Of a stretch of DNA of 64,000 nucleotides, positions 3,054 through 13,304 are shown one piece after another. Source of the stretch: Lentimicrobium saccharophilum (GTDB lineage Bacteria; Bacteroidota; Bacteroidia; Bacteroidales; Lentimicrobiaceae); NCBI RefSeq assembly GCF_001192835.1, contig NZ_DF968183.1, positions 558,001 through 622,000 on the forward strand, read 5' to 3'. Below the pieces are notes generated by a model. It was not told the origin of the DNA. It saw only the letters and a list, made by a program, of their open reading frames with translations, and did no database searches. Positions within the stretch are counted from its first letter, which is position 1, and each line of letters opens with the position of its first letter. A program made the translations under genes and the position numbers.

Positions 3054-4697
3054 TTAGTTCACCGGCAGTGCTTTCCCGGCAGCCAGCAAGGCGTTATAAG
3101 CATTCACTACTCCTCCGGTTCTGGAGAGGGTGGCAAATTTTACTTTCTTTCTTTTCGGTGACTTTATATCAGGACTGTAAACTTTGGCTTTAGGATATTT
3201 CGTACTGCTTTCCAGCAATATATCTTTCAGTTGTAGGGCGGTGAGTTCAGGATAATACGACCATACCAGGGCTGCAACGCCGCTTACAACCGGGCCTGAA
3301 AAGCTGGTGCCATCCCCCATTTCATACTTATTCTCCGGGGCAAGCGAGATGATATTCACTCCGGGAGCAAACAAATCCACATTTTCGGCTCCGTAGTTGG
3401 AAAATATACCGCAAAACTCTTTGTTCAGGATATTGGAAGTAGCTCCTACCGTGATCCAGTTCGGTACTCTTGAACCATCGGCAAGAATTGCCGACGGATA
3501 ATGTTCGGTCAGGTCGAGATTATCGGCTTCATTGCCCGCCGAATGAATCATTAATACATTATGATCTCCCGCATAACGGACCGCATCATCAAGGATGCCC
3601 CGCGTAATGGAAAAATACTTGCCAAAACTCATATTGATGATATCGGCGCCATTGTCAACCGCATACCGGATGGCCAATGCCACATCTTTATCCCTTTCAT
3701 CCCCGTCGGGTACAACCCTGAGCGTCATAATTTCCACATAATCAGCGACCCCGTCAGTACCCGCTCCGTTGCCTCTTGCGGCAGCAATCACTCCGGCCAC
3801 AAAAGTGCCATGAAATGAACGCGGCCCCTTAACATCATTATTGCCATAATGAGTATCGCCGGGATCTTCCGGATCATCTTCCACCTGCGCCCTGGGATTA
3901 AAATCAAGGTTCAGATAGTAATTTAGAAAATCATTGCTGCGCTTTTGCATATCAGCAAGATCCCTCCTGGTAAATCCTTTATTGTAAAGATCCAGCAAGG
4001 CTTCCTTTGCCGAGCTTACCATTTCAGACTTTGTTTTTACCGATTTCACGTCTTCAACAGTAATCTCCTGCTTACGCAGATACTTCCTCAGCACCTCCTC
4101 AAAATGGTTAACATACTCTTCAAAATTATCAAGGTCCTTCTTACGTTGCGTATACTTCCTGAGCTCCTCCTCGTATTTCGTTTTACTTCTCAAATACACT
4201 GCGAAAAGCCGCTTTTCTTCGGCCGACAGTCCATTTTCATCCTTTACCCCGCTGAACCGTGGATTAAGCTTCTTGAAAATCCTGACAAATTCCATGTTTT
4301 CATAAAGCAGATGCTCCCCTTTGCTGTTGCCGATAAAATTCCATCCATGAATATCATCCACATAACCATTATTATCGTCATCCAGACCATTCCCTGCAAT
4401 TTCCTTTTTATTCGTCCATATTTTCCCCTGAAGCTCAGGGTGATAGATATCTACCCCTCCGTCAATTACGGCCACAACCACTTTTTTTCGCGGGGATTTG
4501 TCTTTCAGAAGTTCAAGATAAGCCTGATCAGTGGCTGCACCCTGAACTTTATCAACCACAGGGCTGCGATTGTACCAGTTCAGATATTTAACATCAAGCG
4601 AATCAATGGTTGTTACGCCCCTCGACTGTGAATAAACCGGAATCATGCCTATTGACAGGAACAGCAACAGGATACTGGATTTAGAAAATCTGATCAT
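3054..4697 (-). CDS. Secreted subtilisin-family (S8) serine protease
   Basis: The 547-residue protein begins with a signal peptide (about residues 1-23, ending VYSQ), so it should be periplasmic or exported. The S8 catalytic triad is complete: Asp79 in VAVIDGGVD, His296 in HGTFVAGVIAA and Ser465 in GTSFSGPVVSG, with the oxyanion Asn at about 389 (HSAGNEA). About 215 residues separate Asp and His, far more than in ordinary subtilisins. The extra stretch (about 125-265) is highly charged and predicted helical (KKDLDNFEEYVNHFEEV), so it could be a coiled or cap-like insert. A DDDNNGYVDD segment (about 106-115) looks like a calcium-binding loop. No T9SS sorting domain is visible at the C-terminus. 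Subtilases with this early aspartate and helical insert recur in Bacteroidota. Confidence 0.93.
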   Translation of the reverse strand: MIRFSKSSILLLFLSIGMIPVYSQSRGVTTIDSLDVKYLNWYNRSPVVDKVQGAATDQAYLELLKDKSPRKKVVVAVIDGGVDIYHPELQGKIWTNKKEIAGNGLDDDNNGYVDDIHGWNFIGNSKGEHLLYENMEFVRIFKKLNPRFSGVKDENGLSAEEKRLFAVYLRSKTKYEEELRKYTQRKKDLDNFEEYVNHFEEVLRKYLRKQEITVEDVKSVKTKSEMVSSAKEALLDLYNKGFTRRDLADMQKRSNDFLNYYLNLDFNPRAQVEDDPEDPGDTHYGNNDVKGPRSFHGTFVAGVIAAARGNGAGTDGVADYVEIMTLRVVPDGDERDKDVALAIRYAVDNGADIINMSFGKYFSITRGILDDAVRYAGDHNVLMIHSAGNEADNLDLTEHYPSAILADGSRVPNWITVGATSNILNKEFCGIFSNYGAENVDLFAPGVNIISLAPENKYEMGDGTSFSGPVVSGVAALVWSYYPELTALQLKDILLESSTKYPKAKVYSPDIKSPKRKKVKFATLSRTGGVVNAYNALLAAGKALPVN

Positions 4698-5151: not shown

Positions 5152-5171
5152 ATTTAGAAATTGCTCTAAAT
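5152..5171. promoter_or_regulatory. Candidate regulator-binding dyad ATTTAGA-N6-TCTAAAT
   Basis: ATTTAGA (5152-5158) and TCTAAAT (5165-5171) are exact inverse complements. The dyad centre lies about 57-60 bp upstream of the start predicted from the -7 box at 5207, where Crp/Fnr-type class I activators usually bind. A second half-site, TTTAGAAC, lies at 5141-5148. Similar dyads occur at 26113 and 37702. The cognate protein is unknown. Confidence 0.5.
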
Positions 5172-5206
5172 TGCCTCAGGTTGAACAGGATACATTTATT
5201 TTATTC

Positions 5207-5214
5207 TATATTTG
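5207..5214 (+). promoter_or_regulatory. Bacteroidota -7 promoter element (TATATTTG)
   Basis: TATATTTG matches the TAnnTTTG consensus exactly. The nearest -33-like TTG (5181-5183) is 23 bp upstream rather than the usual 18-20, so the promoter may need an activator at the dyad further upstream. It would serve the operon starting at 5322 and leave a leader of about 100 nt. Confidence 0.6.
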
Positions 5215-5218
5215 CCAT

Positions 5219-5236
5219 AGAAATATTAATATTTCT
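5219..5236. promoter_or_regulatory. Perfect 18-bp palindrome over the predicted transcription start
   Basis: AGAAATATTAATATTTCT is its own reverse complement. It begins 4 bases after the -7 element, so a bound dimer would block initiation. It is very AT-rich, so chance is possible, but its position suits a repressor operator. Confidence 0.45.
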
Positions 5237-5321
5237 AATTATCCCGGATATTACCGACGAATAAATTTCTTTATGAAACTGACCATACTCCCGATAACGG
5301 AAGTTTAATAACAGCAAGGCA

Positions 5322-6917
5322 ATGAAAAGCTACACCAAACCGATTACATTTTTTCTGGCCATTGTGGCGCCACTACTGATCGTAACACTGGTGCTCAGGA
5401 AACCGGAGCCTGACCATGAACTGCTGAATACACTCAGGGCTAAATATGCGGTCAAACGGAAACCTGGTGTGGATCACAGCAAGTTTGAAATTCTGCAGAA
5501 AAATTTTACTAACCCGCATGAAATTACGGCAGCCTGCCTCTCCTGCCACACTGAGCGTGGTGAAGAGCTGATGAACAGCGCCCACTTCACCTGGGAACGC
5601 GAAGCCTTTATTCCCGGCAGGGGTGTAACATATCTTGGCAAGAAGAACCTGGTAAATAACTTCTGCACCGGCGTGCAGTCGAACGAAGGCAGTTGCATGA
5701 AGTGTCATGCCGGTTATGGATGGAATGACAAATCCTTTGATTTTTCAAATCCCTACAACATTGACTGTGTTGTTTGTCATGACAATACAGGAACCTATGA
5801 AAAAGCCAGCGGAGCAGCGGGATATCCCAAAATGGGGCCCGAAGGTCCGGACTTTAAAGCCATAGTCGCAAGCGTAGGTCAACCGAAAAGTGCGGGCTGC
5901 GGCACCTGTCACTTTGGTGGCGGCGGCGGCAACAATGTCAAACACGGTGATCTTGAGCTTGGCTTACTTACCGGAGGTCGTGATGTGGACGTACATATGG
6001 CTGTTGACGGACTAAACATGAATTGCGTGGACTGCCATACGGCCGAGAATCATAAAATAAAAGGAAGATATTATGCAGTATCCTCTTCGAACACCCAGCG
6101 CCTGAATTGCGAGGATTGCCATACGGAAACGCCTCATCAGCAAAATATCCTGAATGAACATTCAATCAAAGTAGCCTGCCAAACCTGCCACATTCCGGTT
6201 TATGCCAAAGTAAATGCCACCAAAATGTACTGGGATTGGGCCACGGCAACCAGAAAAAAAGATGGTAAAGAGTACGAAGTGCTGGATGAAGACGGCAACA
6301 TCGTTTATACCTCTATAAAGGGAGACTTCGTTTGGGATAAGATGGTTAAACCGGAATACCTTTGGTTTAACGGAACAGCTGACCATCACCTGTTGACAGA
6401 CAAGGTTGACACAAGTCAGAATATTTTGAAAATCAATACATTATTTGGAGAATACCGCGATCGCGACAGTAAAATCATCCCCGTAAAAGTTCACCGTGGA
6501 AGGCAGCCCTACGATGCGGAAAACCTGACAATTATTCAAGCTAAGCTCTGGGATAAGGATAAAGGCAAGGGAGCCCTTTGGCTGGATCTTGACTGGGAGC
6601 GTTCCATTGAAGAAGGCATGGCCTATATCCCCCTGCCATACAGTGGGAAACATTCGTTTATTAAAACCGAGATGTTCATGCCGGTAAACCACATGGTTAG
6701 CCCGGCTGCCGAAGCCGTTACCTGCAAGGAATGCCACACCAGAGAGAATGGACGTCTGGCCGGCCTCACCGATTTCTATATGCCTGGCCGCGACCGCAAC
6801 CGCACCCTTGATCTTGCCGGTCAGCTGTTGTTAATACTTTCATTCCTGGGCATTGTGGTCCACTCAGCGATCAGGGCTCTTTCATCACGCAAACATAATA
6901 CCATACAAAGCCATTAA
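5322..6917 (+). CDS. Octaheme c-type cytochrome, tetrathionate reductase (OTR) family
   Basis: The 531-residue protein has eight CxxCH heme-binding motifs, with first cysteines at about residues 72, 125, 149, 193, 235, 263, 286 and 468. The order and the long gap before the last heme fit the octaheme tetrathionate reductase family studied in Shewanella. Those enzymes reduce tetrathionate and also nitrite or hydroxylamine in vitro, so the natural substrate is uncertain. A hydrophobic N-terminal segment (about 8-26) acts as signal or anchor, and a second membrane helix lies at about 497-516. The catalytic domain should therefore be periplasmic and tethered at both ends. It is the first gene of the operon; the cytochrome b gene starts 11 bp after its stop, which suggests direct electron delivery from the quinone pool. 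Confidence 0.92.
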   Translation: MKSYTKPITFFLAIVAPLLIVTLVLRKPEPDHELLNTLRAKYAVKRKPGVDHSKFEILQKNFTNPHEITAACLSCHTERGEELMNSAHFTWEREAFIPGRGVTYLGKKNLVNNFCTGVQSNEGSCMKCHAGYGWNDKSFDFSNPYNIDCVVCHDNTGTYEKASGAAGYPKMGPEGPDFKAIVASVGQPKSAGCGTCHFGGGGGNNVKHGDLELGLLTGGRDVDVHMAVDGLNMNCVDCHTAENHKIKGRYYAVSSSNTQRLNCEDCHTETPHQQNILNEHSIKVACQTCHIPVYAKVNATKMYWDWATATRKKDGKEYEVLDEDGNIVYTSIKGDFVWDKMVKPEYLWFNGTADHHLLTDKVDTSQNILKINTLFGEYRDRDSKIIPVKVHRGRQPYDAENLTIIQAKLWDKDKGKGALWLDLDWERSIEEGMAYIPLPYSGKHSFIKTEMFMPVNHMVSPAAEAVTCKECHTRENGRLAGLTDFYMPGRDRNRTLDLAGQLLLILSFLGIVVHSAIRALSSRKHNTIQSH

Positions 6918-6928
6918 TACCATCAGCA

Positions 6929-7612
6929 ATGAGCACGAATAACAGAGTTTACGTTTACAAGGGTTTTGAGCGATTCTGGCACTGGAACCAGGCCTTGCTG
7001 ATCTTTGTCCTGGCATTTACCGGATTCGAGATTCACAGCTCCTACGATTTTTTTGGCTTTGAAACAGCTGTTAAAATCCACAATTACGCAGCATGGGGAT
7101 TTATCATCCTGATTGTATTCGCCATTTTCTGGCATGTCACAACCGGTGAATGGAAACAGTATATTCCGACTACGAAAAATCTGAAAGCACAGGCGGAATT
7201 CTACCTTTTCGGTATTTTCCGCAATGCCCCCCACCCTACCAAAAAGACGCTGATCAGTAAACTGAACCCATTACAGCGGCTGGTCTATCTCGGGCTTAAA
7301 GTCCTGTTCATTCCCATTATGGTAATTTCCGGGCTGCTTTTCATGTTCTATCGCTATCCTCAGGGCGACAGTATTGCCATTATCAATATCGACAACCTGG
7401 AAATTATCGCGCTGATTCACACTGCAGGCGCGTTTGTGCTGCTGGCTTTTGTGCTGGTGCATCTTTACCTGATTACCACAGGACACACCATCACCTCAAA
7501 CCTGAAGGCCATGATTACCGGCTGGGAAGAACTGGATGAGGAAGATCAGAAAGATCAGGATCAACCGATCGGGAAGCCGGAAAACGAACATGATGAAAAC
7601 CCTAAAATCTGA
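6929..7612 (+). CDS. Membrane cytochrome b (cytochrome b561 / FdnI-like subunit)
   Basis: This 227-residue integral membrane protein has about four transmembrane helices carrying histidines in typical heme b positions: FERFWHWNQ near residue 13, KIHNYAAW, IFWHVTTGEW, and a final helix pair with ALIHTAGAF and LVHLYLITTGH. It resembles the quinol-oxidising subunit of formate dehydrogenase or thiosulfate reductase, which passes electrons to a periplasmic partner. Here the partner is most likely the octaheme cytochrome encoded just upstream. The C-terminal 30 residues are hydrophilic and acidic (ELDEEDQKDQDQ) and probably cytoplasmic. Substrate specificity of the complex cannot be read from this subunit. 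Confidence 0.87.
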   Translation: MSTNNRVYVYKGFERFWHWNQALLIFVLAFTGFEIHSSYDFFGFETAVKIHNYAAWGFIILIVFAIFWHVTTGEWKQYIPTTKNLKAQAEFYLFGIFRNAPHPTKKTLISKLNPLQRLVYLGLKVLFIPIMVISGLLFMFYRYPQGDSIAIINIDNLEIIALIHTAGAFVLLAFVLVHLYLITTGHTITSNLKAMITGWEELDEEDQKDQDQPIGKPENEHDENPKI

Positions 7613-7619
7613 CCGGAAG

Positions 7620-8705
7620 ATGAATCTGAAAAATAAAATTATGCTGATCAGCATTTTTCTGACAACACTCTTTCTTAATACAGGGTGCTCCAGGAAAGAA
7701 CCGGACAAGACCGCTGAACCTGCAGCAACCGTCAATGAATCGCAGGTACTCTATGATTATCTGAAAAAGAAAGGGGACTACATTAACAGTGAAGCAGCCC
7801 CGGCCATTATGACTGCCGCTGAACTTTATACGATGCTCAACCGGAACATCCACTTAATTGATCTCCGGGAGGCTGATCAGTTTAATGAGGGACATATTGA
7901 AGGGGCCGTGAATGTCAGGCCTGAAAACGTGATCGATTATTTTGAAAACCGTATTGATGCGCCTTATTTTGAACGTGTGGTTTTTTTATGCAACCGGGGG
8001 CAGTTATCTGCCTATGTTAACGGGATTATGCGAATTCTTGGCTGCAGCAACACCTATTCGGTGCGTTATGGCATGAGCGGATGGAACACCCGGTTCGCAA
8101 AAACAGGCTGGGACCAGGCAACCGCCACCTTTCCCGGCAACCTGACCATGGAAACCCTGAATCAACCAGCCATCAAAGGCGGAATGCCGGAGATCGCTAC
8201 CGGAGGAATGAACGGATTTCAGATTGCGCGCTTGCGGGCTAAAGCGCTGCTCGATACTGCACAGGCTACATTCCTTATCAATTATTCCGATATTGAGAAA
8301 GCGCCTGAAAAATATGACGTTGTGGCCTATGTGCCTGCAGACTGGTTCGGAAACAACATGCATCCGGCCGGGGCATTGAACTTTATCCCCAAAGCCTCCC
8401 TCTCTACAGAGGCGGATCTGAAATTTTTATCTCCCGGCAAACCGGTAGCGGTTTATTGTTTCAACGGTCATCACAGCGCACATGCGGTGGCCTGGCTGCG
8501 CATGATGGGCTATGAAGCCTATTCGGTGATTTATGGCGCGAATGGTTTTATGTATGATCTGTTTGGCAAAAATGATAAAAACACGCCCCGACAGTGGACT
8601 GACATGCAAAAAAATGATTTTCCCTTTAAATCAGGCAATGCCGGTGGCGGAATAAAAGAAGAGAAAAAGGTTGTAGTAAAGCAGACGCAGGGCGGATGCG
8701 CTTAA
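7620..8705 (+). CDS. Lipoprotein with two rhodanese domains and a GGCA tail
   Basis: The ATG at 7620 is preferred because it gives a clean lipoprotein signal with the lipobox LNTGC (lipidated Cys23). The in-frame ATG at 7590 and the open frame back to 7536 overlap the cytochrome b gene. The 361-residue product has two rhodanese domains. The first has IDLREADQFNEGHIEGAVNV and the active loop CNRGQLS; the second has the loop CFNGHHS. Both keep the catalytic cysteine that carries a persulfide in sulfurtransferases. The extreme C-terminus is QTQGGCA, a tail also seen on two other proteins of this operon. It probably handles sulfane sulfur in the periplasm, close to the cytochrome and the permeases. 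Sulfur donor and acceptor are unknown. Confidence 0.87.
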   Translation: MNLKNKIMLISIFLTTLFLNTGCSRKEPDKTAEPAATVNESQVLYDYLKKKGDYINSEAAPAIMTAAELYTMLNRNIHLIDLREADQFNEGHIEGAVNVRPENVIDYFENRIDAPYFERVVFLCNRGQLSAYVNGIMRILGCSNTYSVRYGMSGWNTRFAKTGWDQATATFPGNLTMETLNQPAIKGGMPEIATGGMNGFQIARLRAKALLDTAQATFLINYSDIEKAPEKYDVVAYVPADWFGNNMHPAGALNFIPKASLSTEADLKFLSPGKPVAVYCFNGHHSAHAVAWLRMMGYEAYSVIYGANGFMYDLFGKNDKNTPRQWTDMQKNDFPFKSGNAGGGIKEEKKVVVKQTQGGCA

Positions 8706-8716
8706 TATTCAAAGAC

Positions 8717-9241
8717 ATGGAACAAAAACCCAAACCTTATATGAATCCATACCTGGCTGGCTTTCTGCTGGGAATGGTATTGCTGGCATCATTCTTTATC
8801 ACCGGCCGCGGGCTTGGTGCCAGCGGAGCAGCCAAAAGCGTGGTAATTGAAAGCATTGGACGCGTTTCGCCGGAATATGCCCAGAAGCATCCGTTTTATG
8901 CCTCATTTTTTGCGACCGGAGATGGCAGGCCAATGAAAAACTGGTTGGTTTACCTGACCCTGGGCGTGCTCGGAGGTGCTTTTTTCTCGGGATTTATGTC
9001 CGGACGTGCAGGTCTTAAGATTGATAAGGGACCAAGGATTTCGAACAGGACACGTCTTATTATGGCTGCGGCCGGAGGATTTCTCTTCGGATTAGGCAGC
9101 CAGTTCGGAAGAGGATGTACCAGCGGCGCAGCGCTCAGCGGTATGGCTACACTCTCTTCAGCCGGATTCCTGACGATGATCGCCATCTTCGGTACCGGAT
9201 ATGTCATTGCCTATTTTTTCAGAAAACTTTGGATCAGCTAA
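8717..9241 (+). CDS. YeeE/YedE (TsuA-like) sulfur permease, short subunit
   Basis: This 174-residue membrane protein has about four helices and the family signature GRGCTSGAALSG with its only cysteine. YeeE/YedE proteins import thiosulfate (TsuA) or related sulfur species through conserved cysteines. A frame opening at 8696 would overlap the previous gene by 10 bases; the ATG at 8717, 11 bases after that stop, gives a more natural start (MEQKPKPYMNPYLAG). A periplasm-sized loop of about 45 residues follows the first helix. It is about half the length of a full TsuA and is followed at once by a second YeeE/YedE gene, so the two may form one transporter. Confidence 0.85.
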   Translation: MEQKPKPYMNPYLAGFLLGMVLLASFFITGRGLGASGAAKSVVIESIGRVSPEYAQKHPFYASFFATGDGRPMKNWLVYLTLGVLGGAFFSGFMSGRAGLKIDKGPRISNRTRLIMAAAGGFLFGLGSQFGRGCTSGAALSGMATLSSAGFLTMIAIFGTGYVIAYFFRKLWIS

Positions 9242-9244
9242 CAG

Positions 9245-9249
9245 GGAGG
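9245..9249 (+). promoter_or_regulatory. Shine-Dalgarno site (GGAGG)
   Basis: A strong GGAGG lies 4 nt before the ATG at 9254. Such sites are uncommon in this window, where most starts lack one, so it supports the start of the second permease gene. Confidence 0.6.
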
Positions 9250-9253
9250 AACT

Positions 9254-10486
9254 ATGGCACCATTGATACCACAGGGATTTATTAATCCGGATCTGAGCTT
9301 GTTTTTCGCCTTCGTGATCGGACTTGGCTTTGGTTATGTACTTGAACAGGCGGGCTTTTCCACTTCACGAAAACTGGCCGGTGTTTTTTATGGTTACGAT
9401 TTTGTCGTACTGAGGGTTTTCTTTACCGCTGCCATTACCGCAGCAATCGGACTCCTGCTGTTTACATACATGGGATGGGTAGACTATGACCTGCTTTATA
9501 TAAATCCGACATTCCTCTGGTCGGCAATTGTCGGCGGGGTAATTATGGGGTTTGGATTTATCCTGGGAGGTTTCTGCCCCGGCACCAGCATGGTTGCAGC
9601 CATTATCGGTAAAATTGACGCCATGTTGTTTATCCTCGGCATGATGGGAGGGATATTCTTCTTCGGCGCTTTTTACAATACTTTTGAGCCGCTTTATAAC
9701 GGTTCGGCACTGGGCAGTATCTTCGTGTTCGACTCCCTGGGCCTTTCCCGTGATTTATTCCTGTTTTTGCTCGTGGTCATAGCGGTGGCAGCATTTATCA
9801 TCACACGAAAAATTGAAGACAAAGTAAATGGCATTCAATCAGAAAAAGGGCTGTTCCATTCTTCCTATGCAATTCCCTTTGCATTTATAAGTGGCCTGGC
9901 GCTGCTGATCTTAATTCTTCCCGACCAGCCCCACTCAAAATGGTATGAAACTGATCCGCAAAGCCTGCTGGAAGAAACGGTTTCCGGCGACCGCTATATG
10001 CAACCCGAAGAACTGGCATACAAAATCCTACACCCCGATGAAAACGACCTTGTTATCGTTGATGTAAGACCGGTTGAAGCTTTCAGGCAATTCAGACTGC
10101 CGGGGTCCATCAATATTCCGCTCGAAAATATTCAGAGCCGCGAGAACAGGCGGAGGCTCAAAAACACCGGCAAAGAAATCCTGCTATACAGCCATGGCTC
10201 AACGAGCGCCGACCAGGCTTGGATGTTTCTGCGAAGGGCAGGGCTGGAAAACATCCGCGTTCTGAAAGGCGGCCTCAATAATTTCTTTACCGGATTCTTT
10301 GCGGAGCAGGAAATTCCCGCCTCAGGCAAATACAGTGAAAAAGAACAATTTGAAAGACGCTTTGTCGAACGGGCTGCAAAAGCATTCAGAGAAGGGGAAG
10401 CTTCCCGCAAAACTCCCTCCGCCGCACAACCGGTAAGGACTCTGATAAACATTCAGCCACCCGCAGCGGGCAAAGGTGGCTGCTGA
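9254..10486 (+). CDS. YeeE/YedE sulfur permease fused to a cysteine-less rhodanese domain, GGC tail
   Basis: The 410-residue protein has an N-terminal membrane part (about residues 10-225, many helices) with the YeeE/YedE signature GGFCPGTSMVAA, then a soluble rhodanese-like domain (about 245-360: IVDVRPVEAFRQFRLPGSINIP and VLKGGLNNFFTGFF). In that domain the active loop reads LLYSHGSTSADQAW, with serine where the catalytic cysteine should be, so it cannot form the usual loop persulfide. The protein ends AAGKGGC. Apart from the permease cysteine, this tail residue is the only cysteine present. The stop codon overlaps the next ATG by one base, indicating translational coupling. Likely role: importing or exporting a reduced sulfur species, with the degenerate domain as docking or relay site. 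Confidence 0.87.
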   Translation: MAPLIPQGFINPDLSLFFAFVIGLGFGYVLEQAGFSTSRKLAGVFYGYDFVVLRVFFTAAITAAIGLLLFTYMGWVDYDLLYINPTFLWSAIVGGVIMGFGFILGGFCPGTSMVAAIIGKIDAMLFILGMMGGIFFFGAFYNTFEPLYNGSALGSIFVFDSLGLSRDLFLFLLVVIAVAAFIITRKIEDKVNGIQSEKGLFHSSYAIPFAFISGLALLILILPDQPHSKWYETDPQSLLEETVSGDRYMQPEELAYKILHPDENDLVIVDVRPVEAFRQFRLPGSINIPLENIQSRENRRRLKNTGKEILLYSHGSTSADQAWMFLRRAGLENIRVLKGGLNNFFTGFFAEQEIPASGKYSEKEQFERRFVERAAKAFREGEASRKTPSAAQPVRTLINIQPPAAGKGGC

Positions 10487-11184
10487 TGAGTTACCCGGCG
10501 AAGACAATCCGGTCAGCAATAAAAAACATAATTCGTAAAGTCAGAGCACTGCTTAAGAAAAAAATTATGGAAAGAGCAAACGACAAGATGCTGAATTACG
10601 CCTTAATGGCATTTTTCGGATTACTGATACTGATCATGGTATTTCAATGGTGGAAAGCGCCTTCCTATACCTTGTCATCCGATGAGGTGCAGCAGGTAAT
10701 ATCGGAAAAAGGGAAAATGATCCTTCCTGAAGAACTGAAATCCATGATGGATGATGGAACGATTAAACAATACACACTGGTGAAACTCGGAGAGAATACT
10801 GATAACGGAATCAGTGGATTCGGAAAGACAATCCGCATCCCCCTCGCCGGCCTGCTGGATCATGACAACCTGAAGCTCCTCAAAAATGAGCAAAGTCTCA
10901 TACTGATCGCTGATTTTGAATCAGAGTCGATGATGGCGATGCATTTACTGACTGCAAAAGGCTTTAAAAACATCCGGGCGGTCTCCAACAATCTGGCATT
11001 TTTCAAAAGTTCCATTCAGAATAACTATAAACCGGGGTTTGCAGCATCACACACCGAGAAAGCCCGCTGGGATTATGCCAGGTTTTTCAGAAGTGAATCC
11101 ACGGGGGGGGTGCCTAAAACCGGAAGTCCGGGCCCGCAAATCCCGGGCGCGCCAAAAGTGATCAAGGCAGGAGGAGGATGCTAG
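10486..11184 (+). CDS. Membrane-anchored degenerate rhodanese with C-terminal GGGC
   Basis: The start at 10486 overlaps the previous stop by one base (TGATG); an ATG at 10567 (MERANDKMLNY) is the alternative. The 232-residue product has a basic N-terminus, one membrane helix (about residues 38-57 from the upstream start) and a soluble domain that resembles the rhodanese part of the preceding protein: LILIADFESESMMAMHLL then GFKNIRAVSNNLAFF. The catalytic-loop cysteine is absent. After a Gly/Pro-rich linker the chain ends KAGGGC, and that terminal residue is the only cysteine in the whole protein. I infer a scaffold or sulfur carrier for the operon. It is the last gene of the cluster. Confidence 0.75.
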   Translation: MSYPAKTIRSAIKNIIRKVRALLKKKIMERANDKMLNYALMAFFGLLILIMVFQWWKAPSYTLSSDEVQQVISEKGKMILPEELKSMMDDGTIKQYTLVKLGENTDNGISGFGKTIRIPLAGLLDHDNLKLLKNEQSLILIADFESESMMAMHLLTAKGFKNIRAVSNNLAFFKSSIQNNYKPGFAASHTEKARWDYARFFRSESTGGVPKTGSPGPQIPGAPKVIKAGGGC

Positions 11185-11633: not shown

Positions 11634-12509
11634 ATGGATTTCCTGAATAAGTTTATGGGTACATTGTTGTATGGCCTGCTGAAACTTACTGCTTACCTTC
11701 CGCTGAAACTCCTGTACTTAAAAGCTGATGCGATCAGTTTTATTGCTGAAAAGATCATCCGTTACAGGTATCCTGTTATTATTCAAAATCTTTCCCGTGC
11801 TTTTCCCGAAAAAAACTACCATGAGATAAAAGAAGTTGCCCATCAGTTCTACAGGCATTTCTTCAGGGTTTTTGCAGAAGTAATCAGGAGTCAGGCAATG
11901 AAACCCGAGGAAGCCAGAAAAAGGTACAATCTGACAAACCCTGAACTTATCAGGGAACTGCACCGGAATAAACTGAATATTCTCGTGCTTGGCGGGCACT
12001 GGGGCAACTGGGAGTGGCTGATTATGACACCCCTGTTCTTCAGCTTCAGCACTTATACATTATATAAACCACTGAGCAGCAAGACTACAGAGTATCTTAT
12101 GGCACGGATCCGCAGGCATTTTGGCATGAAGTTATTGCCAATGCAACAAGCCGGCAGATTCATTCTCAGCAAAAAAGATTTCCCGGCACTCTATTTCTTT
12201 ATCGGGGATCAATCCCCTTCGCATAAGAATCCGGAATACCGCTTTAACTTTCTTAATCAGCCCAGCTTTTTCTTCAACGGGGGAGCCAGGCTTGCCATGG
12301 CCACAAAATCAGCAGTGATTTATCAGTCAATCAGCAGAACAAAACCAGGATTCTATGATGTTACATTCCGGCTTGTTTCTCTTCCCGGCGATGGACAGAA
12401 TGAGCAGGATATCCTCCGGAAATATGTGACATTGCTTGAAGCAGACATTCATAGCAAACCGGCTTATTGGCTATGGTCGCACAAACGATGGAAACACCGG
12501 GCAGAATAA
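11634..12509 (+). CDS. LpxL/HtrB-family lysophospholipid (lipid A) acyltransferase
   Basis: The 291-residue protein belongs to the bacterial lipid A biosynthesis acyltransferase family, which adds secondary acyl chains to lipid A at the inner face of the inner membrane. The catalytic HX4E motif is present as GGHWGNWEW (His122, Glu127). An N-terminal hydrophobic segment (about 8-30) anchors it, and FIGDQSP and FNGGARLA match later conserved blocks. Length is usual for the family. It is convergent with the acetyltransferase gene, with only 11 bp between stops. Members of this family also include ornithine-lipid and other acyltransferases, so the acceptor is not certain. Confidence 0.88.
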   Translation: MDFLNKFMGTLLYGLLKLTAYLPLKLLYLKADAISFIAEKIIRYRYPVIIQNLSRAFPEKNYHEIKEVAHQFYRHFFRVFAEVIRSQAMKPEEARKRYNLTNPELIRELHRNKLNILVLGGHWGNWEWLIMTPLFFSFSTYTLYKPLSSKTTEYLMARIRRHFGMKLLPMQQAGRFILSKKDFPALYFFIGDQSPSHKNPEYRFNFLNQPSFFFNGGARLAMATKSAVIYQSISRTKPGFYDVTFRLVSLPGDGQNEQDILRKYVTLLEADIHSKPAYWLWSHKRWKHRAE

Positions 12510-12520
12510 ATGGGCTGAAT

Positions 12521-13234
12521 TTATGGCTTTGACACCCTGGCCCAGGTAAGCCGGTTTCTGACGATAAAACCAAGACTTCCGAACAACCCTAGCGAAGCGA
12601 TATTGGTTGGCTCGATATGAGCAAAAACCGGCCTTCCTTTCTGATGTACTTTTCGCGACATTGCACTTACCAGCCTGCGCGCAAACCCTCTTCCCCTGTA
12701 TGCATCAAGCACATGCAGCATACCTACGGAGCCGTCATCATGGGTCATTATCCATGCAACCGGTGATTGCTGATACCTGATACAGTATCCGCCACCCAGC
12801 TCCAGACGTTTTGTCAGATAATCCATGTTAAGAAATTGCTGGTACTTTGAATTGTCATAAACATAACGCAGATCATCGGGCCGGAGCTGATCAATATCTG
12901 CAGCCGGTTCCGGAAACACTGACAGATTCAGGAAAAGTCTGTAGCAACTGATGGACCAGGCTACCCTGTAAGTTTTATTGATCCAATCAAAAAGATGACT
13001 GTCCGAAACTACGATGAATTGTCTTTGGCCATGTTTACCGAAGAAGTTTTTGATAAATCCGGCATCTGCATTGTGACTGAAATGGCACCATTCTTCATCT
13101 GACTGAAAGCGACACATCAGCATGCCGGTCTGTTCCATTACTTCGAGCAAAGGATATTCTTCAGCCAGGCAAAGGATTGAAACATTCTGCTCGGGCTCTT
13201 TAAGGAGAAGTTGCCTGTTTTCCTCTGTCAGCAT
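12521..13234 (-). CDS. GNAT-family N-acetyltransferase
   Basis: The 237-residue product starting at ATG 13234 has a C-terminal GNAT fold. The acetyl-CoA binding motif appears as VLDAYRGRGFARRLVSAMS (about residues 170-188), followed by PVFAHIEPTNIASLGLFGSLGF, the usual strand-helix end of the FR47-like subfamily. The N-terminal 110 residues are poorly conserved and may hold the substrate pocket. A TTG eight codons upstream at 13258 is an alternative start. Substrate unknown. It follows the LytTR regulator gene on the same strand with a 70-bp gap and might be co-transcribed. Confidence 0.8.
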   Translation of the reverse strand: MLTEENRQLLLKEPEQNVSILCLAEEYPLLEVMEQTGMLMCRFQSDEEWCHFSHNADAGFIKNFFGKHGQRQFIVVSDSHLFDWINKTYRVAWSISCYRLFLNLSVFPEPAADIDQLRPDDLRYVYDNSKYQQFLNMDYLTKRLELGGGYCIRYQQSPVAWIMTHDDGSVGMLHVLDAYRGRGFARRLVSAMSRKVHQKGRPVFAHIEPTNIASLGLFGSLGFIVRNRLTWARVSKP

Positions 13235-13304
13235 TCCGAAAGCTATTATTGTTGGCAAAATTGTTCATAATCAGCACATTTCCCCCTTCTCCAGACTAAA
13301 ACAA

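Follow-up and report, generated by a model that had tools for sequence, protein, structure and literature searches.

Conserved Gly-Gly-Cys tails on rhodanese-fold proteins of an octaheme cytochrome operon in Lentimicrobium saccharophilum: candidate arms of a periplasmic sulfur relay

In a 64,000-nucleotide stretch of the Lentimicrobium saccharophilum genome (contig NZ_DF968183.1, positions 558,001 to 622,000; hereafter the window), six tandem genes on the + strand (5322-11184) encode an octaheme cytochrome c of the OTR family, a b-type cytochrome, rhodanese-fold proteins and two YeeE/YedE-type proteins. The main conserved device of this operon is a C-terminal Gly-Gly-Cys tail borne by three of its products, which an earlier note on this DNA had not mentioned. 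We propose, at odds of roughly one in two (about 0.52), that the operon specifies a sulfur relay in the periplasm, attached to the membrane and coupled to a respiratory reductase. The tails would act as periplasmic covalent sulfur-carrier arms, by analogy with the chemistry of SoxY and on an unrelated fold.

The earlier note had described six tightly spaced genes and these are real, the OTR, the b cytochrome, the double rhodanese, the YeeE proteins and the rhodanese fusion all being recovered by profile searches; the operon start that it had placed at 5152 falls in upstream DNA, as the genes begin at 5322. The gene models below are our own calls of the longest open reading frames (ORFs), and by eye from relatives the start codons of genes 3, 4 and 6 probably lie downstream of the longest-ORF starts, at the positions given in brackets.

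5207-5214, + strand: promoter-like element TAnnTTTG, TATATTTG, upstream of the OTR gene
5322-6917, + strand: gene 1, octaheme cytochrome c of the OTR family (TIGR04315), 531 aa, by profile and structure match
6929-7612, + strand: gene 2, b-type cytochrome (Ni_hydr_CYTB), 227 aa, Pfam match of 108 bits
7536-8705 (likely start about 7620), + strand: gene 3, probable lipoprotein with two rhodanese domains (Pfam)
8691-8702, + strand: C-terminal GGCA tail of gene 3, kept in 39/55 relatives
8696-9241 (likely start about 8717), + strand: gene 4, YeeEa, C-terminal half of a YeeE/YedE-type transporter (PF04143 positions 177-309)
9116-9118, + strand: invariant Cys of gene 4 (Cys141) in GRGCTSG, 97/97 relatives
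9254-10486, + strand: gene 5, YeeEb, N-terminal YeeE half fused to a rhodanese fold without catalytic Cys
9575-9577, + strand: invariant Cys of gene 5 in GGFCPGTS, 92/92 relatives
10475-10483, + strand: C-terminal GGC tail of gene 5, 86/92 full-length relatives and 31/31 rows of alignment A1
10486-11184 (likely start about 10567), + strand: gene 6, signal-anchored rhodanese-fold protein without catalytic Cys
11173-11181, + strand: C-terminal GGC tail of gene 6, 29/30 relatives

The products of genes 3, 5 and 6 end in GGCA, GGC and GGC, and among the window's 84 stop-to-stop frames of 120 aa or more only these three have such an ending. We followed the tails through relatives gathered for their proximity to OTR, counting distinct sequences and ignoring kinship. 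Gene 5 relatives (92 fusions of 380-450 aa) terminate in GGC, or GGC plus one residue, in 86 cases, and in 91 if GGxC is counted, with L185 as the exception; in a wider set the tail is found in 95 of 111. Among gene 6 relatives the exception to the terminal GGC is L008, which has AGC, and the gene 3 tail occurs in 28/30 relatives with YeeEa in the locus and in 11/25 without it. Conversely, no Gly-Gly-Cys ending was detected in the 97 gene 4 proteins, 161 b cytochromes and 182 OTRs, or in 1323 further complete genes of 120 aa or more from the locus set. The Gly-Gly-Cys codons come in 26 combinations and all three stop codons are used; it is therefore the protein ending itself that is conserved, and an artefact of ORF calling or of a DNA repeat is excluded. 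We also judge a sorting signal unlikely, as the tail ends the protein and no membrane helix follows it. The stretches before the tails are rich in Lys, Ala, Pro or Glu, and AlphaFold2 assigns both modelled tails (residues 386-410 of gene 5 and 177-205 of gene 6) a predicted local distance difference test score (pLDDT) below 50.

The tail cysteine outlasts the active site of the fold that carries it. The gene 3 protein has retained its active-site cysteines, Cys152 and Cys308 each being present in 94% of 55 relatives, and Cys51 at the lipobox position is found in 100% of them. At the equivalent loop, gene 5 reads SHGSTS and gene 6 ADFESES, neither alignment (A1 and A2, respectively) having a conserved Cys at that place, and in 61 of the 92 gene 5 relatives the tail Cys is the sole Cys of the last 165 residues. 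Gene 6 reaches no Pfam family at its cut-off, and its AlphaFold2 model matches rhodaneses in Foldseek searches (e.g. 3gk5, TM-score 0.76 by target length), in agreement with its earlier description as a membrane-anchored degenerate rhodanese. Its relatives are poorly conserved, and the terminal residues are among their few invariant positions. Other OTR clusters encode related small rhodaneses of 160-195 aa, the majority of which have a lipobox-like Cys; these likewise end in GGC in 18/18 cases, that of L071 included, and show an active-site Cys, in CKKG, in 10 and not in the other 8. The catalytic Cys has thus been lost in genes 5 and 6 while the tail Cys has stayed.

Genes 4 and 5 had been taken for two YeeE/YedE permeases, a view that did not hold: their matches to PF04143 (Sulf_transp, 310 profile positions, gathering score 27) are complementary halves, covering positions 177-309 in gene 4 (66.6 bits) and 4-187 in gene 5 (59.3 bits), which excludes two full permeases. 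Since they complement each other in this way, we read the two genes as probably encoding one split transporter. They are the sole PF04143 matches (E <= 0.001) of the whole genome, and Pfam also places a rhodanese domain in gene 5. Each half has one invariant Cys, within GRGCTSG in all 97 gene 4 relatives and within GGFCPGTS in all 92 gene 5 relatives. Both halves miss the equivalog cut-off of 400 for TsuA in NCBIfam, with 27.5 and 11.2 bits.

Gene 1 belongs firmly to the OTR family (564.4 bits against TIGR04315, cut-off 375), has 8 CXXCH motifs and matches the OTR structure of S. oneidensis (1sp3) with an E-value of 5e-119; hydrophobic segments at its N- and C-terminal ends look by eye like membrane anchors. 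Equivalents of Cys64 and Lys153 of 1sp3, which we take to be catalytic in OTR, are present in 184/184 OTR rows, 1sp3 included. Residues 80 and 237, where the active-site Asp and Lys were expected, proved to be Gly and Ile in the numbering used and were set aside. Gene 2 is a Ni_hydr_CYTB protein and likely the quinol-oxidising subunit; its top NCBIfam match, below the cut-off, is to the thiosulfate reductase cytochrome b subunit. The b cytochrome takes other forms elsewhere. In L046 (6163-8910) and similar Chloroflexota loci it forms the C-terminal portion of a larger protein of 916-970 aa, in which seven CXXCH motifs occur (Pfam-based for L046 only). In L176 (7892-9775), L121, L122, L172 and L178 no b cytochrome gene follows OTR, and a multihaem protein of 591-632 aa (8-9 CXXCH) lies after YeeEa-YeeEb; the L176 protein, the one tested of these five, gives a weak b-type match. 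In L035 (10589-11917) and other versions of ~440 aa, PAS domains are joined to the OTR-linked b cytochrome (tested on L035 only), which suggests a redox sensor form.

The association of these families is conserved well beyond Lentimicrobium, as the earlier note's view of a linked module would have it. From a first protein search, run against one genome per species, we obtained 52 OTR loci; in 36 of them a YeeEa gene lies downstream on the OTR strand, and several of the remaining 16 stop shortly after OTR. With family, order and phylum samples added, the set grew to 183 distinct OTR rows plus 1sp3, in which we scored YeeEa as linked when it lay on the same strand within 7 genes downstream or 5 upstream of OTR. 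On this basis 96 rows are YeeEa-linked, 34 have rhodaneses without YeeEa, 39 only a b cytochrome and 14 neither, and 21 of the 87 rows without YeeEa lie near a contig end. The count excludes loci L053-L070, which are short, and OTR frames no longer than 420 aa, and scores L103, whose YeeEa frame is shifted, as lacking it; among the 96, L040_8860 counts through the YeeEa of a second nearby OTR operon, and L167_3099 and L190_9937 have YeeEa upstream. The longest ORFs are separated by median gaps of -1 to 24.5 bp. The linked loci come from Bacteroidota, Ignavibacteriota and Chloroflexota and from one Elusimicrobia metagenome-assembled genome (MAG; L029). Chance neighbourhood is rejected. Of the 395 genomes in a phylum sample, 55 carry an OTR that passes the cut-off, and in 36 of these a YeeEb is directly linked to it. 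On a quick maximum-likelihood OTR tree YeeE linkage needs 8 changes, compared to a mean of 61.6 for shuffled labels; linkage is therefore strongly clustered, yet has been gained or lost several times.

The same set also follows a second, unrelated reductase of sulfur type. A gene 5 profile search of the phylum sample led us to fetch 30 loci away from OTR (G273:C36, G153:C14 and weaker matches were left out), and in 25 of them the neighbours of the set encode a molybdenum enzyme resembling PhsA, together with an Fe-S protein and an NrfD-like membrane protein; in 21 of those 25 the order continues with YeeEa, YeeEb and a rhodanese ending in Gly-Cys. The three large subunits tested have thiosulfate reductase PhsA as their top NCBIfam match (463-525 bits, short of the cut-off of 694). 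The 28 unfused partner rhodaneses that end in Gly-Cys comprise 15 EGC, 8 GGC, 4 MGC and 1 DGC endings, and in 25 of them the tail Cys is the sole Cys beyond residue 30. At L211, PhsABC-like genes accompany two GGC rhodaneses with no YeeE between. Some genomes from this search hold an OTR elsewhere (e.g. G407, G080 and G032), and the source genome has weak PhsA matches only, none over the cut-off. Because the YeeE/rhodanese set keeps company with this second reductase, a sulfur-redox role gains support. Of the sulfur-redox uptake system put forward in the earlier note, the sulfur-redox part is thus supported by synteny and by the PhsA-like context, and the two permeases are not.

Two features of the proteins point to the periplasm as the site of the rhodanese and its tail. 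The unfused rhodaneses listed mostly begin with basic residues followed by a hydrophobic stretch, as expected if they are anchored in the membrane with the N-terminus inside, and in gene 5 relatives the most basic inter-helix stretch is that of residues 186-203, between the fifth and sixth helix, the latter being the last (mean 3.7 Lys+Arg), and residues 73-84 have zero Lys+Arg. The anchor pattern and the loop charges together place rhodanese and tail, as far as sequence can tell, on the periplasmic side, and we judge a cytoplasmic arm unlikely on the same grounds.

In the relay that we propose, electrons from quinol would reach OTR (gene 1) by way of the b cytochrome (gene 2), and OTR would cleave the S-S bond of a sulfane-sulfur compound, e.g. 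tetrathionate or a thiosulfate adduct. The gene 3 lipoprotein would load sulfane sulfur onto its two catalytic cysteines, and the flexible Gly-Gly-Cys tails of genes 3, 5 and 6 would hold it covalently, as persulfide or thiosulfonate, in the manner of SoxY. The rhodanese folds of genes 5 and 6, without a catalytic Cys, would be docking bodies for the arms, and the split YeeE (genes 4 and 5), with its one invariant Cys in each half, would receive sulfur from a tethered arm and move it across the membrane. Arms occur with OTR and YeeE, with a PhsA-like enzyme and YeeE, with OTR but no YeeE (e.g. L071) and with YeeE but no adjacent reductase; being common to all of these contexts, they are distributed as expected of a carrier between several stations. 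Sulfur may flow from the arm to the reductase, from the arm to the transporter, or both, each being compatible with the sequences, and polythionate reduction followed by import of the product, as first suggested for this locus, may be one of two directions. We also consider, as a rather unlikely refinement, that the natural substrate of OTR and of the PhsA-like enzymes is arm-bound sulfur (protein-S-S-SO3 or protein persulfide, which would chemically resemble tetrathionate or polysulfide) instead of free polythionate. If so, this would be carrier-bound sulfur respiration, corresponding in the reductive direction to the SoxAX/SoxY step and making use of rhodanese folds that have given up their own catalytic Cys; whether OTR acts on carrier-bound sulfur in these cells becomes a testable question.

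Several observations weigh against this proposal. Import would proceed without a known cytoplasmic acceptor, because the partner of TsuA is TusA-like and a PF01206 search (E <= 0.001) gave 0 matches in the genome and matches in 11 of 14 control genomes. In the AlphaFold2 model of gene 5 the membrane part is of low confidence, and no TsuA chain appears among the best 50 Foldseek matches of the model. The tail is missing from 16/55 gene 3 relatives, of which 14 are from loci without YeeEa. Among OTR genomes of the phylum sample, 19/55 have no linked YeeEb (13 of family f19, and 6 without a b cytochrome gene beside OTR, among them G407, which has an unlinked set), so that OTR as such does not need the arm set; nor is SoxY supported as a substitute arm in such genomes, being found in 7 of the 13 from f19. 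Away from OTR, no partner rhodanese was found at L214 and L229, and that of L230 is short and has no tail; four of the 30 loci (L212, L217, L218 and L220) have no adjacent reductase, and L205 begins at a contig end. To our knowledge, no biochemistry has been reported for any arm. As an aside, the four loci without a reductase are of family f25 and combine YeeE halves with rhodaneses ending in RMGC.

In Wolinella, the periplasmic rhodanese Sud works with a respiratory sulfur reductase, feeding polysulfide reductase, and the arms could similarly deliver a sulfur substrate to OTR or the PhsA-like enzyme, with the YeeE halves anchoring the arm or having a side role, e.g. in signalling. The arms that accompany a reductase but no YeeE (the 18/18 small rhodaneses of OTR clusters, and L211) fit such delivery, as do the missing TusA match and the chains of up to ten sulfur atoms that Sud bound experimentally according to the available portion of PMC3397948. 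It leaves unexplained, however, why YeeE halves with an invariant Cys are kept in 96/183 OTR rows and why four loci keep YeeE and Gly-Cys arms with no reductase adjacent, and we regard it as unlikely, though a serious contender. Simple thiosulfate salvage, in which thiosulfate that OTR has released from tetrathionate enters as a sulfur source through the split YeeE and the arms only raise the local concentration, strikes us as decidedly improbable: the OTR family name and the 1sp3 match suit it, and YeeE (TsuA) is described in the accessible text of PMC11073785 as importing thiosulfate through a proposed Cys relay, but the two halves score far below the TsuA cut-off, no TusA/YeeD partner was found in the genome, and a PhsA-type partner, if its family name is a guide, would consume thiosulfate.

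Two further readings change the element or the substrate. That the system reduces or imports selenite or selenium, with persulfide-like selenium on the arms, finds some footing in a SelD of 391 bits in the genome, in the weak scores (16.1 and 24.6 bits) against the selenium YedE models of NCBIfam and in the Sec-containing forms of YeeE and OTR listed in the part of PMC13188914 that could be consulted. Against it stands the PhsA-like nature of the other partner reductase, a weak point, as it concerns three tested proteins and neighbours of unknown kind were left out of the screening for selenium genes; we consider selenium very improbable. The SelD match itself (G000:C2:688961-689884, - strand) lies inside an open frame of 754 aa, longer than SelD alone and possibly a fusion. 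Least probable of all is that OTR serves as a nitrite or hydroxylamine reductase with the sulfur genes as bystanders. Shewanella OTR can reduce both compounds, going by the title of reference 27 in PMC7887784, yet bystanders would hardly keep synteny with YeeE and Gly-Cys rhodaneses across phyla, or recur as the same set with a PhsA-like enzyme.

Returning to the relay, one of its closest counterparts is SoxYZ of the Sox thiosulfate-oxidising complex, with which the operon shares a C-terminal Gly-Gly-Cys, a likeness of motif only. The Cys in the C-terminal GGCGG of SoxY is established as binding the sulfur substrate in the portion of PMC6067878 available, whereas the arms of the operon are on rhodanese folds with several bearers, attached to membrane or lipid and tied to reductases; PF13501 (SoxY) has no match in the six proteins (E up to 1) or in the genome. 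As neither TusA nor SoxY is matched, neither known partner was found in the genome. In lucinid symbionts a divergent soxY adjoins otr, as the available text of PMC11237559 has it. TsuA-TsuB (YeeE-YeeD) shares the PF04143 transporter with an invariant Cys, and TsuA is proposed to hand thiosulfate along cysteines to a cytoplasmic TusA-like protein (PMC11073785, same portion); the operon differs in that its YeeE is split into two genes, fused to a rhodanese and below the TsuA cut-off, and in that no TusA-like partner was found. A half-length YeeE pair in conserved order also recalls PmpA/PmpB, two short YeeE-like proteins proposed in the accessible part of PMC11582611 to form one transporter as a heterodimer, the comparison being by description only; the present pair sits in a reductase operon, and one of its members bears a rhodanese and a GGC arm.

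The S. oneidensis OTR is of the same family, and its 8 haems, Cys64 and Lys153 are kept in gene 1; the operon adds a dedicated b cytochrome, transporter halves and arm proteins, the comparison being made at protein level. With Sud/Psr of Wolinella the rhodanese fold is common (1qxn ranks 50 among the gene 6 Foldseek matches, E 0.015), but genes 5 and 6 have no catalytic Cys and bear a C-terminal Cys arm. The YTD cluster of sulfur disproportionators also links YeeE to sulfur-transfer proteins, its carriers being TusA- and DsrE-like, and no OTR, rhodanese arm or split YeeE is described for it in the available part of PMC13047784. Metagenome surveys count OTR genes as tetrathionate reductases (e.g. 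PMC7887784, in the text accessible). In the open-access full-text literature we found no description of the Gly-Gly-Cys tails or of the two alternative reductases of the arm set. If the relay is real, periplasmic sulfur arms would be of two types, the second being independent of SoxY and present in Bacteroidota, Ignavibacteriota and Chloroflexota, and a YeeE half with a rhodanese ending in Gly-Cys would be a sequence marker for sulfur respiration modules.

The source genome (4.5 Mb, two contigs) has its closest named relative found in a Lentimicrobium MAG (locus L001, OTR 99% identical), and in the window the operon has a subtilase gene on one side (3054-4697, opposite strand) and a lipid A acyltransferase gene on the other (at 11634). 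The TAnnTTTG element, which we take to be of the Bacteroidota -7 promoter type, has a match upstream of OTR in all 14 loci examined, at -80 to -134 in 12 of them (raw counts), and is likely a shared promoter. An 18-base palindrome upstream of gene 1 was dropped, being absent upstream of OTR in the near-identical L001. The same genome contains a second OTR operon, L071 (G000:C1:561000-579000, OTR at 11699-13291, - strand), with genes for OTR, a b cytochrome, a GGC lipoprotein rhodanese, a double-rhodanese relative without tail, a Porin_O_P-type porin and a further rhodanese, and a divergent gene for a Crp/Fnr-type regulator upstream. A MerR-type regulator gene (12550-13056, - strand) stands immediately upstream of OTR in L085, and many linked loci have a gene of similar size, matched by size alone, in that position.

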